From positions 1-43,069 of IMG/VR virus record IMGVR_UViG_3300048597_000669: DNA of 43,069 nt. One strand, written 5' to 3'. Shown here piece after piece: positions 31,035 to 40,332 of this stretch. Source of the stretch: a virus. The position numbers were made by a program, and so were the translations under genes. Position 1 is the stretch's first letter. The number at the start of each line of letters is the position of its first letter. Below the pieces are notes generated by a model. That model saw nothing but the letters and a program-made list of their open reading frames with translations. It was not told the DNA's origin and made no database searches.

Positions 31035-31290
31035 CTGGCGCCAAAGCCGCCCAGCGCGCGATCCGATCGCGCTTGGCAGCCAGATGCTCGGCGACCGTCA
31101 TGCCATAATCGGGGTGACCGCGTCCGAGGTTCGCACGAGCCACTCCTGGCAGCGTCCTGCCCCGGCTTCGAACCACGCGCTTCTTGGGCGCGGGCGCCTC
31201 CTCGGCAGCGACGACCGACGCGCTGACGCCAACGCTGGCAATCATCCCTGCCAGAAGCGCGACAGATGCTCCTCGTCCAAGCAGGCGCAT
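31024..31290 (-). CDS. small secreted protein
   Basis: An 88-residue protein with a signal peptide (MRLLGRGASVALLAGMIASV, cleavage probably after SVVAAEE's Ala-Ala) and a basic mature part with PDYGMTVAEHLAAKRDRIARW. Its ATG overlaps the stop of the replication gene. Periplasmic location expected; function unknown. Confidence 0.65.
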   Translation of the reverse strand: MRLLGRGASVALLAGMIASVGVSASVVAAEEAPAPKKRVVRSRGRTLPGVARANLGRGHPDYGMTVAEHLAAKRDRIARWAALAPVSS

Positions 31291-32297
31291 CAAACGCTCT
31301 CCCTCACCGTGATCTTCACCGGGCCGCCGGCGGCGCTGCGCAGGTCGGCCGCGAACTGGCTGGCGACGTAATCGGCGTGGAAGGCCGAGGGCGCGAGCGC
31401 CAGCAGCTCGCCGCCACCCTCTTCGAACTGCAGCCGGTCGATCCATGCGACGCTGGTCTTGGCGCCCAGCCGCTGCCGCAGCGCCGCCCGGATCGCCTGT
31501 ATACGCGGCGGCTCGTCGATCATCTTGTTGTCAGCAACAAATTGATCCGGCGCGTCACGCTCTGCAGGCCGCCCGAATTCGCCATCCAGCAGTCGGGTGA
31601 ACAGCCGCAACCCCGCGGCATGGCCCAGCTCGAACACGGCGTCGAAGGTGCAGAACAGGTCCCCCTGCCCGGCAATCGCGCCCTTTCGCCGGAAGCCGCC
31701 GGCCGCAACGCCGCGCTCAACCGTGTCGATCGTCATCAGCACCTGGCCGAGGCCGACCGCAGCCAGCTTGTTGGCCACCGCCACCCGCCGCGCCGCATCC
31801 CGCGTCACCGGCCCCGGCAGCCCCGCCCGCGTCGTCCAGGCGTCCCAGGCCTCGAAGACCTGGTCGACGGGATCTGCCGATCCCTTTTTCTCGGCTACCG
31901 GCTCGCGCGCGCGCTCGCGTGGTGAGATGGTTACTGGTTCTTCTATATATATAGACCCCCTGACAGGTTGGCAGGGGGGGTCTGACACTGTGACAGCCCC
32001 CTCTGACACGGCGGCATCCGCCGCGGGCGTGCCGAAGAACGGGTGAACGAGTGTGGCAAAGGGCGCCCCAGGCGCGGTTTCTTCGCGGGTGATGTGCCCG
32101 GCATCGGTCAGGATGACATAGGCCCGGTGGATCGTCCGGCGCGACAGGCCAGTGCGGGAAGAAATCTCGGCCGTGGTCAGCGATGATCGCCCGCCCCGCG
32201 AATCCCGGGCCTCATCGGCCAGCACGGTCAGCACCTGGCGCGCCATCGGCGGCAGGCCCTTCACCCGGTGGACGGCGCGAAGCAGCGCGTTGCTCAA
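31290..32297 (-). CDS. replication initiator-like protein (winged helix + DnaA_N-like)
   Basis: A 335-residue protein. Residues about 1-75 are a winged-helix DNA-binding domain (LTTAEISSRTGLSRRTIHRAYVILTDAGHI); a low-complexity linker follows; the last 60 residues (ALRQRLGAKTSVAWIDRL and ELLALAPSAFHADYVASQFAADL) look like the DnaA N-terminal domain that binds the replicative helicase. This arrangement is common in phage initiators. I chose the TTG at 32297, overlapping the upstream stop (TTGA); the frame upstream is noise. The linker-coding DNA holds an origin-like sequence. Confidence 0.78.
   Translation of the reverse strand: MSNALLRAVHRVKGLPPMARQVLTVLADEARDSRGGRSSLTTAEISSRTGLSRRTIHRAYVILTDAGHITREETAPGAPFATLVHPFFGTPAADAAVSEGAVTVSDPPCQPVRGSIYIEEPVTISPRERAREPVAEKKGSADPVDQVFEAWDAWTTRAGLPGPVTRDAARRVAVANKLAAVGLGQVLMTIDTVERGVAAGGFRRKGAIAGQGDLFCTFDAVFELGHAAGLRLFTRLLDGEFGRPAERDAPDQFVADNKMIDEPPRIQAIRAALRQRLGAKTSVAWIDRLQFEEGGGELLALAPSAFHADYVASQFAADLRSAAGGPVKITVRESV
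31943..32008. other. candidate replication origin inside the initiator gene
   Basis: An AT island with the 12-base palindrome CTATATATATAG (31943-31954) is followed by repeated TGACA elements: CTGACA at 31960, 31982 and 32003 and GTGACA at 31990. The first three-way spacing is 21-22 bases, about two helix turns. A CCCCCTG/CAGGGGG inverted repeat lies between. Lambda ori likewise lies in the linker of gene O. Confidence 0.5.
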
Positions 32298-32758
32298 GAC
32301 TGTCGAGCCTCCGCCAGTGCGCGGTTGAGCATGTCGGACACCTTGCCGAGCTCGAGGATCTCCGGCGCGGCGGCCAGCAGCTCTTGCCGATCGACAACCC
32401 CGTCGCCGGCGGCGGCGTCGATCAGCTTCAACAGCGCGGCGGTCAGCACCCGCGGGGCGTGCGCCACACATCCGGGCTGCACCACCGCCGTCGAGCGCAT
32501 GCCGGCGTTGAAGAGCAGCGGGTCGAGGAAACGCGCCCCCCACTGGTTGCCGGCGCGGATAAAGGAATAGGCGCTGATGTCGGCATTGCCCTTCCGGGCT
32601 TCTTCGGCGCGGTCTTTCGACTTGCCTATCACGTCGCCGATATCGCGGTCGTGCAGGCCATCCTCGAACTTGATCCGCTCGAGCGTGTCGGCCTGTGTCC
32701 TGAGGTGCAAAGACACGCCCGGCATGGCCGCGATTCGGTGGATTTGCCCCCGGGTCAT
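32294..32758 (-). CDS. hypothetical early protein
   Basis: A 154-residue soluble protein of unrecognised family, second upstream of the initiator. The N-terminus is basic and helical, with a KSKDRAEEARKG stretch; the C-terminus is a helical, acidic domain (LAAAPEILELGKVSDMLNRAL). Its stop overlaps the TTG start of the initiator gene. A regulatory or replication-accessory function is likely from context only. Confidence 0.65.
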   Translation of the reverse strand: MTRGQIHRIAAMPGVSLHLRTQADTLERIKFEDGLHDRDIGDVIGKSKDRAEEARKGNADISAYSFIRAGNQWGARFLDPLLFNAGMRSTAVVQPGCVAHAPRVLTAALLKLIDAAAGDGVVDRQELLAAAPEILELGKVSDMLNRALAEARQS

Positions 32759-32789
32759 CGGCGAGCCTCAGGCCATGAACAATCCAGCA

Positions 32790-33005
32790 TCAGGGCAGCT
32801 TGTCGAGCTCGCCGCAGTCGCCGAAGCGACCAAAGGGTGGCGTATCCGCCACTGGCTTGCCGATATCGAGCATGACGCCGTCCGGCTTGAGGGTGACGCC
32901 CTGCCCGCGCGGCGGCGGCTCGGCACCGAATTGCCGATCGATCTCGTCCCGGATCATCTGCTGAATGATCTCGCGCTGTTCGGGCGAAAAGTCCCAGGCC
33001 GTCAT
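32790..33005 (-). CDS. small hypothetical early protein
   Basis: A 71-residue protein with a helical charged N-terminus (SPEQREIIQQMIRDEIDRQF) and a Pro/Gly-rich C-terminus. ATG at 33005 overlaps the Cro-like stop (ATGA), so it is the second gene of the leftward early operon. Function unknown. Confidence 0.65.
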   Translation of the reverse strand: MTAWDFSPEQREIIQQMIRDEIDRQFGAEPPPRGQGVTLKPDGVMLDIGKPVADTPPFGRFGDCGELDKLP

Positions 33006-33220
33006 GCGGCGGCCTTGTTCGCTCGCGCCGCCATGACGGCCGGGCAGATCGCAGCGGCGTCGATCTCGCCCTTGCTGAAGGTTTCGAGCTTCAGCGCGAC
33101 CTGCTGCGAGCACGGCTCGCCATTCTCAATCTGTGAGAGATAGCCCTTGGTGACGCCAATTTCCTTTCCAAGCGCCTCGAGCGTCATCCCTCGGGATTGC
33201 CTGAATGATCGAATATCCAT
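33002..33220 (-). CDS. Cro-like HTH regulator
   Basis: A 72-residue XRE-type helix-turn-helix protein (MTLEALGKEIGVTKGYLSQIENGEP). The ATG at 33220 lies directly at the predicted transcription start of the leftward promoter, so the mRNA is probably leaderless; no ribosome site is visible. Longer in-frame starts run into the operator. First gene of the leftward early operon and divergent from the repressor candidate, the position of lambda cro. Confidence 0.85.
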   Translation of the reverse strand: MDIRSFRQSRGMTLEALGKEIGVTKGYLSQIENGEPCSQQVALKLETFSKGEIDAAAICPAVMAARANKAAA

Positions 33221-33227
33221 GTCGCGC

Positions 33228-33255
33228 AGTTTAGATAATCTAAACATCGTGTCAA
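33228..33255 (-). promoter_or_regulatory. leftward early promoter with overlapping operator
   Basis: On the minus strand TTGACA (33255-33250), a 16-base spacer, then TAAACT (33233-33228). The 17-bp perfect palindrome GTTTAGAT-A-ATCTAAAC at 33229-33245 covers the -10. A bound repressor would block it. The TSS is expected within a base or two of the Cro-like ATG. Confidence 0.8.
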
Positions 33256-33314
33256 CCGATGTCGTTTGGACCTGTCGTGACGACGCCCTGCGTTCGTTCC
33301 GATATTCTACACCA

Positions 33315-33659
33315 ATGGCCAAGCCGATAAACGATTGGTTCCTCAGGGACTGGGCAAAGATGCTCGGCAAGCGCCAGGTGGATTTCGTCCGCGACCTCGG
33401 CTGGAACAAGTCAAAGGCCAACCTCGTATGGCACAACGCGCAGGCTTATAACCGAGAGACCATCAACGAGGTCTCCCAGTATCTGCAGATTGCACCCTAT
33501 GAACTGCTGCTCCATCCTGATGACGCGATGGCCATTCGTCAGTTGCGAATTTCCGCAAGACAGATAGCCAGAGTGCAGTTGGCGGCAGAGCCTGCCGTCG
33601 AATGGGCAGCAGAGCAGCCGATCGATATTGCGGAGATCAAAGGCCGATGGCGAAAGTAA
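33315..33659 (+). CDS. prophage repressor candidate, HTH protein
   Basis: A 114-residue protein with an HTH-like N-terminus (WAKMLGKRQVDFVRDLGWNKSKANLVWHNAQAYNRETINEVSQYLQI) of a type common in alphaproteobacterial prophages. No peptidase or dimer domain of the lambda CI type is visible, so induction would not follow the RecA-cleavage route. Start ATG at 33315 lacks an obvious ribosome site. Divergent from the Cro-like gene and co-directional with the FxLYD membrane protein, which fits expression in the lysogen. Confidence 0.7.
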   Translation: MAKPINDWFLRDWAKMLGKRQVDFVRDLGWNKSKANLVWHNAQAYNRETINEVSQYLQIAPYELLLHPDDAMAIRQLRISARQIARVQLAAEPAVEWAAEQPIDIAEIKGRWRK

Positions 33660-34207
33660 GCTGCCCGCGCTGCGCCGAGAAGATCCAGGGCGAAGCGCTT
33701 GTTTGCCGCCACTGTGGTCATGAGCTGACGCCCGACGAACTCGATGCGCGCGCTGCAAAAGCGAAAATTGACAGCTGGGTGAAGATCGGGATTGGAGCCG
33801 TCCTTCTGGTGGGTGTTGTCAAATGCTCCATGACGGAGGTGCCCGCCAGCAATTCTGCGGCCTCGTCACTCTCGTCCAGCAATAGCCTGGACTATTCGGC
33901 GCCGGCCGTCCGCAAGGAGGCCCGGCTCGATAAATTCTCTTGGGAGGCATACGGCGACACATATTGCCACGCCAACGCCAAGGTGACGAACACAAGCACC
34001 GATTCGCTGCCGTATGTCCGCATCGCTCTCCAATTCTTCAAGAACGGAAAATTGGTCGGATCCGACAAGTCCTATCTCGACGTAACCGATCTGGGCCCAG
34101 GCCAAACATCAACGTGGAGCGCGATGTACGAATGCCCCGGCCGAACGGCCGAGGTTGAAATTACCGCCACCTCGCGCGGTGACGCTGTGATACTATCCGA
34201 CCCCTGA
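33647..34207 (+). CDS. zinc-ribbon, membrane-anchored FxLYD protein
   Basis: A 186-residue protein: an N-terminal double-Cys zinc ribbon (CPRC at about 6-9, CRHCGHEL near 20), one membrane span (about 42-57, WVKIGIGAVLLVGVV), a Ser-rich linker and an FxLYD-type beta-sandwich (AKVTNTSTDSLPYVRIALQFF, then DLGPGQTSTWSA). The ATG overlaps the repressor-candidate gene, so both are likely made in the lysogen. Lysogenic conversion, for instance a change of the cell envelope, is possible. The region has lower GC than its neighbours. Confidence 0.75.
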   Translation: MAKVSCPRCAEKIQGEALVCRHCGHELTPDELDARAAKAKIDSWVKIGIGAVLLVGVVKCSMTEVPASNSAASSLSSSNSLDYSAPAVRKEARLDKFSWEAYGDTYCHANAKVTNTSTDSLPYVRIALQFFKNGKLVGSDKSYLDVTDLGPGQTSTWSAMYECPGRTAEVEITATSRGDAVILSDP

Positions 34208-34230
34208 CAGGCCAGCAGCGCAAAACCGAA

Positions 34231-34282
34231 GTTTAGCACGACTAAACTTTTTCCTTGACGAGCGGTTTAGCTAATCTAAACT
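34231..34282 (+). promoter_or_regulatory. rightward early promoter with two operators
   Basis: TTGACG (34255-34260), a 16-base spacer, TAAACT (34277-34282). One operator, GTTTAGCT-A-ATCTAAAC, at 34265-34281 overlaps the -10; a second, GTTTAGCA-C-GACTAAAC, at 34231-34247 lies upstream of the -35, 34 bases away. Same architecture as the leftward promoter. It would drive the plus-strand early operon to the integrase. Confidence 0.82.
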
Positions 34283-34348
34283 GCCCTCTCGACGCCGCCG
34301 ACTCCCCGGCTTTTCCGGGCAGGCCCGCGCGGCGCGGGAGATTGAGCC

Positions 34349-34774
34349 ATGGGGCTCAACGCACAACAGATCGCCTGGCGCGATATCGTCGACGCGGCCC
34401 GCCCTGCGCCGCCTCCCTTCTTCCTCCATGCCCGGCAGCTTACCCCCGCTGACCGGCAGCCTGGCCCCGGCGCGGTGCTTCCCGTCCGCCTCCCCAGGTC
34501 CCCCCACGCGCGCCATGCCGGGGTGGCGCCCCTTCATTCGGATCAGGACGGGCCTTGGGCTTTCCTTTTCCGCCCCTGCAGCTGCTGCGGCCGGCCGGTC
34601 CCGCTCGAGCGCTGGCACGATGGCCAGCCCGGATGCGACGAATGCAACCGTGTCGAAGCCGAGCGCCGCGCCGAATGGCGCCTGCGCATCGGCCTCGGCC
34701 TTGCCCTGGGCGCGACGATCGCCGTTGCCGGGCTTGGCTGGGCGTCGCTGTTTCGCTGGCTGGGGTGGTGGTGA
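34349..34774 (+). CDS. hypothetical protein with Cys cluster and C-terminal membrane span
   Basis: A 141-residue protein, first gene of the rightward early operon. A GGGAG site is 8 bases before the ATG. The N-terminal half is Pro-rich and looks unstructured; CSCCGRPV and CDEC (about 82-100) could bind zinc; the C-terminus has a hydrophobic span (LGLALGATIAVAGLGWASLF). Function unknown. A shorter product starting later cannot be excluded. Confidence 0.55.
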   Translation: MGLNAQQIAWRDIVDAARPAPPPFFLHARQLTPADRQPGPGAVLPVRLPRSPHARHAGVAPLHSDQDGPWAFLFRPCSCCGRPVPLERWHDGQPGCDECNRVEAERRAEWRLRIGLGLALGATIAVAGLGWASLFRWLGWW

Positions 34775-34980
34775 TGAACCGCCGCACCGCCCCGGCCGCC
34801 CGCCGCCACCGCGGCATGCTGGTCGCTCCCCCTGCCCGGCCGATCGAGCCGCTGGCGCCCTATGTCGACCGCAGCGAGTGGCAGGCCCCGGTCAACGCCC
34901 GTTTCTGGGTGCTGCTCTGGCTGGGCATGCTGGCGCTGACCGCACTGGGCGTCGCGCTCACCATCGGGTGGCGGCCGTGA
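34774..34980 (+). CDS. small single-span membrane protein
   Basis: A 68-residue protein beginning at the TGATG overlap with the previous gene. Basic N-terminus and one membrane segment near the C-terminus (about 45-64, WVLLWLGMLALTALGVAL). Function unknown. Confidence 0.6.
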   Translation: MNRRTAPAARRHRGMLVAPPARPIEPLAPYVDRSEWQAPVNARFWVLLWLGMLALTALGVALTIGWRP

Positions 34981-35213
34981 TCGCCCGCTTGCTCGCGCGG
35001 CTCCGCGGCCCGGCGACAGAGCGCGTGCTGTTTCAGCCGCCGCCAGAGCTATCCGAAGCCGGCCGCCGGCTCTCTGCAGAAGCAGCCGCCCGCCGCCGCG
35101 CCGATGCCCAGCTGCGCCGCAAAGATCGCTCGGCCTGGGTGAAGGCGCACTGCGCCCAGATCCTCGCCAGCATGAACCCCAGCCCCGAACAGCAGGACCT
35201 TTTCCATGAGTGA
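34977..35213 (+). CDS. small basic hypothetical protein
   Basis: A 78-residue Arg/Ala-rich protein starting at a GTG that overlaps the previous stop (GTGA). Helical and basic in the middle ([22 protein letters not shown]). Its end overlaps the GapR start by 8 bases. No family recognised. Confidence 0.6.
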
Positions 35214-35448
35214 CAACATCAGCGCCGAGCAGCTGCGCCAGTTCATCGAGCGGATCGAAACGCTCGAGGAGGAAAAGAAGGGCATCAGCGACGATATCCG
35301 CGACGTCTATGCCGAGGCCAAGGGCACCGGCTTTGACCCGAAGATCATGCGGCAGATCGTGAAGCTGCGGAAAATGGAGGCCAGCGCGCGGCAGGAAGCC
35401 GAGGCGTTGCTCGATATCTACAAGTTCGCGCTCGGGCTGGTCGACTGA
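35206..35448 (+). CDS. gapR: GapR-family (DUF2312) DNA-binding protein
   Basis: An 80-residue protein with the full DUF2312/GapR pattern: [43 protein letters not shown] and [17 protein letters not shown]. In Caulobacter GapR forms a clamp on overtwisted DNA ahead of polymerases and helps gyrase and topoisomerase IV. Full length. In a phage it may ease replication or transcription of its own genome, or compete with the host copy. It directly precedes the cytosine methyltransferase (stop/start overlap). Confidence 0.93.
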
Positions 35449-38979: not shown

Positions 38980-39218
38980 GCCACAAACCCCGCTCACCAG
39001 GCGGCGAGACCGACATGCGCATCGGCGTGTCGAAGGCCGAGCACCGGCTGCTCGATGCCATCAACTCACTGCGCAACGCCGGCGAACCGCACCAGACGTT
39101 CGAGGAGATCGCCGAGCAATGGCTTGGAGTCGAGGGCCAGATGCTGGATCCGCAGCGGATGCTGGAACTGGCCGCACGTGTCGTGCTGGCGACCGAGAAG
39201 CTGGACGCCGGCGCATGA
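38976..39218 (+). CDS. hypothetical protein
   Basis: An 80-residue helical protein; the middle (HRLLDAINSLRNAGEPHQTFEEIAEQWLGV) has two helices of DNA-binding type spacing but no assigned fold. ATGA overlap with its neighbours on both sides. Confidence 0.6.
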   Translation: MSHKPRSPGGETDMRIGVSKAEHRLLDAINSLRNAGEPHQTFEEIAEQWLGVEGQMLDPQRMLELAARVVLATEKLDAGA

Positions 39219-39406
39219 TCCGCGACCTTCCCCCCGCTGCGCTCGAGGCGCTCGAGCAGCTGCGCGCCAACGAACCCGCCTGGCGCCGCAAGACCGTCGA
39301 TCAGCTCGCCGCCGAGCTCGAGCATGCCAGCATCATGCCCGACAACAGCAAGGCCGATTACACCCGCGCCGCCGCCCTGGCGCTCCACCTGGCCGGGAGG
39401 GTCTGA
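39215..39406 (+). CDS. small helical hypothetical protein
   Basis: A 63-residue acidic helical protein starting at the ATGA overlap with the previous gene. The upstream part of its frame is antisense-like and not included. Function unknown. Confidence 0.6.
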   Translation: MIRDLPPAALEALEQLRANEPAWRRKTVDQLAAELEHASIMPDNSKADYTRAAALALHLAGRV

Positions 39407-40332
39407 TGGCCGACAACACCAAGATCGAATGGACCGATGCGACCTGGAACCCGCTGCGCGGCTGCACGCGGGTCAGCGAGGGATGCCGCAACTGCTATGC
39501 CGAGGGTGTGGCGGCACGGTTTAGCGGGCCAGGGCAAGCCTATGAAGGACTGGCAAAGCGCACTCGCGGCGGGCCGCGCTGGACTGGCAAGGTCGCGTTC
39601 GCTGGCGAACAGACGCTGCTACAGCCGCTGCGCTGGCGCCGGCCGCGCCAGATCTTCGTCAACTCCATGTCCGACCTGTTTCACGAGGCTGTGCCCGACG
39701 AACTGATCGACCGCATTTTCGCGGTGATGGCGCTGGCACCGCAGCACACATTCCAGGTGCTGACCAAGCGGCCGGAGCGGATGCGGGTCTACCTGAACGT
39801 GCCCGAGCGAGTTGGAAAATGGCTTAACGCCATGGATGCGCTGGACGAGCGAGGTTCCAACGCTTTTACCTCTTTCCCCCTGCCCAACGTCTGGCTGGGC
39901 ACCAGCGTCGAGGACAAATACGTCGCGCTCGTTCGCGGCGCCGCGCTAAAAGCCTGCCCCGCGGCCGTCCGCTTCTGGTCAGCCGAGCCGCTGCTCGGTG
40001 ATCTTGGCTACCTTTCGCACGCGATCATGCCGGACTGGATCATCGCCGGCGGCGAAAGCGGCCCGCGCGCGAGGCCGATGCACCCGGACTGGGTGCGCGA
40101 CCTTCGCGATCGATGCGCCGCCGCCGGCGTGCCCTTCTTCTTCAAGCAATGGGGAGAGTGGGTGCCGCTGCGGAGTTTCGATGGCGGCTTCTGGCCGACC
40201 GACACCGGCGGCTGCATTCGGCTGACACCGGAGGGTGAGCGCCGCGACTGGGGCTATCCAATGCAGCGCGTCGGCAAGAAACACACGGGCCGGCTGCTCG
40301 GCGGCATCGAACACAACGGGATGCCAGCATGA
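39406..40332 (+). CDS. DUF5131 (phage Gp37/Gp68) radical-SAM-like protein
   Basis: A 308-residue protein of the Gp37/Gp68 family. It opens IEWTDATWNPLRGCTRVSEGCRNCYAE, where three Cys (C-x6-C-x2-C) could hold an iron-sulphur cluster, then FVNSMSDLFHEAVP, TKRPERM, WLGTSVED, SAEPLLGDL and GGESGPRARPM. Distant similarity to radical SAM enzymes suggests nucleotide or DNA chemistry; the reaction is not known. The frame upstream of 39406 is noise. It is linked to the ASCH gene by a 4-base overlap. Confidence 0.92.
   Translation: MADNTKIEWTDATWNPLRGCTRVSEGCRNCYAEGVAARFSGPGQAYEGLAKRTRGGPRWTGKVAFAGEQTLLQPLRWRRPRQIFVNSMSDLFHEAVPDELIDRIFAVMALAPQHTFQVLTKRPERMRVYLNVPERVGKWLNAMDALDERGSNAFTSFPLPNVWLGTSVEDKYVALVRGAALKACPAAVRFWSAEPLLGDLGYLSHAIMPDWIIAGGESGPRARPMHPDWVRDLRDRCAAAGVPFFFKQWGEWVPLRSFDGGFWPTDTGGCIRLTPEGERRDWGYPMQRVGKKHTGRLLGGIEHNGMPA

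Follow-up and report, generated by a model that had tools for sequence, protein, structure and literature searches.

The window, the whole 43,069-bp stretch of viral DNA analysed here, is a virus record with genes for a large terminase subunit and an integrase. It carries a 17-bp palindrome at two early promoters on either side of a gene for a helix-turn-helix (HTH) protein. The locus raises the question of whether it is the lysogeny switch of a temperate phage, and which of the two neighbouring HTH proteins reads the palindromes.

Operators, promoters and regulator genes of the window

The palindrome GTTTAG-N5-CTAAAC occurs in exactly three copies in the 43,069 bp, at positions 33229-33245, 34231-34247 and 34265-34281. 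It was absent from all 100 dinucleotide-preserving shuffles of the window, and the best other place matched at most nine of the 12 arm bases scored. Stoperator-like sites scattered over the genome were rejected because no other place in the window exceeded 9/12. A scan of positions 32700-35300 (2.6 kb) for sigma-70 promoters returned exactly two, compared to 0.3 expected. The leftward, PR-like early promoter is TTGACA-N16-TAAACT on the reverse strand, from 33255 to 33228, with the −35 element at 33255-33250 and the −10 element at 33233-33228. It is covered by operator 1, which is OR1-like (GTTTAG ATAAT CTAAAC, 33229-33245). The rightward, PL-like early promoter is TTGACG-N16-TAAACT on the forward strand (34255-34282), and is covered by operator 3, the proximal OL-like site (GTTTAG CTAAT CTAAAC, 34265-34281). 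Operators 1 and 3 each overlap the promoter spacer and five bases of the −10 element, and the −10 bases at both early promoters are part of promoter and palindrome alike. Operator 2, the distal OL-like site (GTTTAG CACGA CTAAAC, 34231-34247), is centred approximately 50 bp upstream of the predicted rightward start. All three operators are exact matches.

These results reproduce, exactly to the base, the three operator copies claimed in an earlier, sequence-only reading of the window, as well as its two promoters with an operator over each −10 element and its two-gene unit between them, which consists of the 114-residue HTH gene and a 186-residue gene. The inventory of that reading held for the early promoters but lacked the promoter of the repressor gene, the predicted leaderless starts and a weak additional operator, as well as the weaker OR2- and OR3-like sites of relatives and the variable passenger slot, all of which are described below. 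The weak additional site is OR3-like (GTTCCGATATTCTACAC, 33296-33312), matches nine of the 12 arm bases, and is positioned over the −10 element of the predicted repressor promoter, 67 bp from operator 1. No convincing OR2-like site was found in the window, where the best place matches 5/12; therefore, autoactivation of the repressor is not supported for the window. That place, the one at which relatives carry an OR2-like site, contains a lone half-site GTTTGG (33264-33281), 35 bp from operator 1, which is possibly a decayed operator.

The 114-residue protein (33315-33659, forward strand) is the candidate for a cI-like repressor. By itself, it matches a protein family only weakly (HTH_26, E 0.03). 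Nevertheless, the N-terminal part of its AlphaFold model has the HTH fold of lambda-repressor-like proteins, with a recognition helix formed by residues 32-39 and a long helix by residues 68-91, and its Foldseek neighbours include 1lmb, 2cro and 1adr (probability about 1, E 0.02-0.06). A LexA-like self-cleavage or oligomerisation domain was not found in the C-terminal part, and residues 92-114 are modelled at low confidence. Because this domain is absent, we do not class the protein as lambda CI but only as working like one. SOS-type self-cleavage is therefore unlikely, and induction needs another route. Homologs of the protein in phages Pam1 and Mae-JY04 are annotated as CI repressors. The CI role of the window protein is predicted from its position, its fold and the covariation described below.

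The leftward promoter drives an operon that begins with a 72-residue protein in the cro position (33002-33220, reverse strand). The protein matches HTH_3 (PF01381) above the gathering cut-off (40.9 bits compared to 23, E 2e-10), and its recognition helix comprises residues 25-32. Its assignment to YdaS (PF15943) was not supported by Pfam, which gave no match to this family; the cro-slot protein of one relative, L010, reaches 18.3 bits for this family, below the gathering cut-off of 30. The ATG of the next open reading frame (ORF) in the list, encoding 71 residues (32790-33005, reverse strand), overlaps the stop codon of the cro-like gene. It is followed by a 154-residue protein in the cII position (32294-32758, reverse strand; phrog_16695), which weakly resembles Pam1 gp49, annotated as CII (27% over 82 residues). 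On this similarity it is a candidate CII, an identity that we leave open. The operon also includes a replication-initiator-like gene (31290-32543, reverse strand; PHROG replication initiation protein, E 2e-6); these coordinates are those of the listed ORF, and the true start is probably further in.

Conserved layout and predicted leaderless starts in related phages

Homologs of the 114-residue protein were taken from viral contigs, genomes and phage records. The genomes include Sphingomonadaceae, Novosphingobium, Sphingopyxis and Caulobacteraceae, and homologs are rare in whole genomes (4/399 of one order and 1/249 of another). A single-sequence search of viral contigs with the 72-residue protein found no relatives; a four-row profile of it did find relatives there. 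Once identical domains were removed, 84 distinct loci were left, and in 82 of them a gene of the 72-residue HTH type is located beside the repressor gene on the opposite strand. The first three relatives had the same layout with other operator letters: GTTTGG, GTTCGG and a GTTTCAC form. The family operator was searched for as GTTxyz-N5-z'y'x'AAC with xyz free, requiring one site to the left of the repressor gene and others to the right. This search found the same arrangement in 63 of the 84 loci at a score of at least 9, compared to 0 of 252 block-shuffled controls. The other 21 loci did not reach this score, some of them because of an early contig end.

The shared order is one operator over the leftward cro-like promoter, the cI-like gene, followed in part of the loci by a passenger gene, and two operators at the rightward promoter. 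The left operator is in the same place in 60 of the 62 scored relatives. The triplets xyz include TAG, TGG, TGC, TCA, TCC, CGG, CGC, CAC, CAA, CCA, CGA and CTA. The two right operators are 34 bp apart in 24 loci, 35 bp in 31 and 36 bp in seven (62 pairs; spacings of 32-38 bp were allowed in the search). In many loci, both promoters have the TTGA of their −35 element starting some 10-12 bp ahead of the operator. When the match to each locus's own operator was averaged to the right of the left operator, further peaks appeared at +35/36 and +69. Sites matching at least nine of 12 bases occur at the OR2-like place (+34 to +37) in 34 of the 62 loci and at the OR3-like place (+67 to +70) in 21, compared to a background of 0.24%.

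The relatives also reveal a promoter for the repressor gene. Upstream of its start codon, they share a weak −35 element, AACGAC at about −36 to −31, and TATAAT at −12 to −7; 26 of 29 strong −10 hexamers begin exactly at −12 from the start codon. The corresponding PRM-like maintenance promoter predicted in the window consists of ACGACG (33280-33285) and TATTCT (33303-33308), separated by 17 bp, on the forward strand, and its transcript is predicted to start at the A of the ATG at 33315. In about 51 of 60 relatives, the start codon of the cro-like gene is positioned 8-12 nt beyond the operator; in half of the loci the distance is 9 nt. Transcription is therefore predicted to start at this start codon. 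In the window, the leftward mRNA would begin on or next to the ATG at 33220, and thus be leaderless. From these distances we infer that the mRNAs of both regulators are leaderless.

The cro slot is occupied by at least three distinct HTH subfamilies, of the HTH_3, PSRPLAIHIF and SKGRLSQL types, with the operator class and the predicted leaderless start kept (window-type loci compared with L060, L062, L070, L102-L104, L112, L113 and L121). This suggests that cro was swapped under a fixed operator. Two phages with recorded cyanobacterial hosts, Mae-JY04 (L061, Microcystis) and Pam1 (L062, Pseudanabaena), share the switch with prophages found in Sphingomonadaceae and Caulobacteraceae. This means either that the module crosses phyla or that the cyanophage-labelled phages in truth infect co-cultured alphaproteobacteria.

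Covariation of operators with recognition helices

In 62 loci, each alignment column was scored for its mutual information with the operator letters, and a single top column emerged for each protein. For both position 4 of the operator and the whole triplet, it is that of L37 in the 114-residue protein and that of Q30 in the 72-residue protein. The excess of mutual information at position 4 is 0.60 and 0.70 bits in the two families, respectively, compared to column medians of 0.06 and 0.08. In the structure models, each of the two residues is the sixth of its recognition helix.

The column ranking is free of residue classes, which were picked after looking at the data for the following counts. 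In the 114-residue family, the residue is hydrophobic in 29 of 35 loci with T at position 4, and in 2 of 27 without it. In the 72-residue family, Asp or Glu is present in 21 of 27 loci with C at position 4, and in 0 of 35 without it. None of 1,000 runs in which traits were simulated independently on each protein's tree reached the observed association. The association holds with the other protein fixed in one class (p 2e-4 and 1e-3), as well as in loci that were added once the pattern was known (p 1e-5 and 7e-8); when each 60%-identity cluster contributes a single locus per base, the p values weaken to 0.02 and 0.013. The pairing of a hydrophobic residue with T fits the methyl-reading physics of phage repressors. 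Lysine 46 of the 933W repressor, also a sixth helix residue, has been placed by modelling next to the thymine methyl of operator position 4, and the reading of methyl groups by aliphatic side-chain atoms has been described as common among phage repressors (PMC3317979). Since position 4 covaries with the same helix residue in both proteins, we predict that the two recognise a common set of sites. The repressor and the Cro-like protein would thus share their operators, as lambda CI and Cro do.

Alternative explanations have to be weighed against this prediction. Adjacent genes travel together, so that the covariation of one protein could be an indirect correlation inherited via linkage, and only the other HTH protein, for example the 72-residue one as an autoregulator, would bind the operators. 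The clearer HTH family match of the 72-residue protein is in line with such an arrangement. However, the residue of each protein predicts position 4 within the stratum of the other, which weakens linkage as the sole cause, and the peaks of the two proteins coincide in structural position. Linkage is also not strict, as clearly different cro-slot proteins accompany the same operator letters. We therefore consider a single operator-binding protein improbable.

It is less probable still that the module is an accessory regulator, belonging to a toxin-antitoxin system, a modification system with a control protein or a defence cassette, and not the main lysogeny switch. Antitoxins and controller proteins, too, belong to the XRE proteins and have palindromic operators. 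Several of them are among the PDB matches, a C5 methylase is encoded 1.2 kb into the rightward operon, and one cro-slot protein weakly resembles YdaS. Nevertheless, the sites sit over two divergent operons with replication genes in one direction and the integrase in the other, the arrangement persists with very different passenger genes or with none, and the homologs in Pam1 and Mae-JY04 bear the annotation of CI repressors. The shared −10 bases might also suggest that the palindromes arose by chance, or are generic promoter-proximal repeats without a regulator. Chance palindromes were rejected statistically, as neither the window shuffles nor the locus controls reached the observed level, and the two operator arms vary together from phage to phage, and along with the protein residues. 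We give this last explanation practically no weight.

Proposed switch and its relatives

The earlier reading held that the matched promoters define the immunity system of the phage. The conserved layout and the covariation support the claim that the two early promoters are a matched, repressible pair within a phage immunity region; "predict" is a more fitting word than "define". We consider it very probable that a temperate phage has its immunity region here, with the same kind of wiring as in lambda. Based on the observed positions, conservation, promoter geometry and covariation, we infer the binding, dimerisation and cooperativity of the regulators, the leaderlessness of their mRNAs, and which protein favours which site. 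The 114-residue protein would be the CI-type lysogenic repressor and bind as a dimer to the GTTTAG-N5-CTAAAC operators. In the lysogen, it would shut the leftward promoter, which serves the cro-like, cII-position and replication genes, as well as the rightward promoter, which serves the methylase, GapR-like and integrase genes. The 72-residue protein would be Cro, made first, from the leaderless leftward mRNA; bound to the same operators, it would limit its own promoter and oppose the repressor. The weak maintenance promoter would produce the repressor and the passenger from an mRNA that begins at the repressor start codon. The spacing of 34-36 bp is probably kept so that neighbouring dimers can cooperate.

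The immunity region of lambda (OR-PR-cro, PRM-cI-rex, OL-PL) has the same topology, with divergent cro and cI, a passenger after cI, early promoters on both sides, and operators over early promoter elements. The operators of lambda are 23-24 bp apart, whereas those of the family studied here are separated by 34-36 bp, approximately one helical turn more, which is compatible with cooperative contact on one face of the DNA. Lambda has three operators on each side; in the window, by contrast, the cro side carries a single strong operator and the far side carries two. The repressor of about 114 residues lacks the C-terminal cleavage and cooperativity domain of lambda CI. The cI mRNA of lambda is leaderless (PMC8630535); in the window, the cro-like mRNA is predicted to be leaderless as well.

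Phage Pam1 contains a homologous repressor and the same gene order in gp47-gp49, which were compared with CI, Cro and CII on the basis of structure predictions (PMC9382816). The passages of that paper found here do not mention operators. The Pam1 locus has GTTCGC-type operators, with one left and two right sites; unlike in the window, its Cro-slot protein is of another subfamily, and the operator letters differ. The PaaR2/YdaS switch of CP-933P from E. coli O157:H7 has a short repressor (tagged mass 15 kDa) with a leaderless mRNA, a small Cro-like protein that opposes the repressor, and intergenic operators (PMC8630535). It resembles the window in these features, namely the short repressor with a leaderless mRNA and the small Cro-like opponent, but differs in having a toxin-antitoxin pair in the repressor operon and two divergent promoters in a 97-bp gap. 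In the telomere phage PY54, both cI and cro mRNAs were found by RACE to be leaderless (PMC4488713), as is predicted for the window. However, the Cro of PY54 has one binding site and is not believed to repress its own synthesis, and the proteins and operators of PY54 are different. A search of the open literature, which misses most subscription journals, found no prior description of the operators reported here. The architecture is known, and the operator family, the spacing, the shared covariation and the predicted doubly leaderless arrangement make it a variant.

We lean towards the view that these loci represent a widespread switch family, present in phages of alphaproteobacteria and in freshwater phages labelled as cyanophages. 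Its two different HTH proteins and the 17-bp operators that they share would co-evolve by a readable code that links half-site position 4 to residue 6 of both recognition helices. The family would be further characterised by a phasing of about 35 bp, by the absence of a self-cleavage domain from the repressor, and by mRNAs that are leaderless for both regulators. Lysogeny switches outside the phages of enteric and Gram-positive bacteria are little studied, and here the sequence alone yields operators, three promoters and specificity residues for about 60 phages. If the code is true, it allows immunity groups to be predicted from sequence, and the resulting groups of superinfection immunity can be tested. 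The short repressor poses the question of the route of prophage induction. The parallel change at the same helix position of two site-sharing proteins provides a natural experiment on how repressor, Cro and operators can change without loss of control.

The passenger of the window is a 186-residue protein (33647-34207, forward strand) in a rex-like slot, whose gene overlaps the repressor gene by 13 nt. It contains a zinc ribbon, one hydrophobic helix that would anchor it in the membrane, and an FxLYD domain. The slot holds unrelated small genes in about two thirds of the loci, often with membrane- or lipoprotein-like starts, and is empty in about one third. The gap between the repressor gene and the right operator ranges from none, with the operator overlapping the end of the gene, to more than 2 kb. 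The slot resembles the rex position of lambda, and may contain exclusion or defence genes, which makes it a place to seek those for superinfection exclusion.

The rightward early operon begins with an ORF of 141 residues without an assigned function (34349-34774, forward strand), and encodes a GapR-like DNA-binding protein early on (35206-35448, forward strand; PF10073, E 2e-35). GapR is an alphaproteobacterial chromosome protein, and the gene therefore hints at an alphaproteobacterial host. A similar GapR-like ORF follows the right operators in relative L004. Farther into the operon are the C5 DNA methylase, a DUF5131 (Gp37-Gp68 family) protein near the integrase (39055-40332, forward strand; E 2e-93), and the integrase itself at the contig end. 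Phage Mae-JY04 contains a Gp37Gp68 protein in a place comparable to that of the DUF5131 protein.
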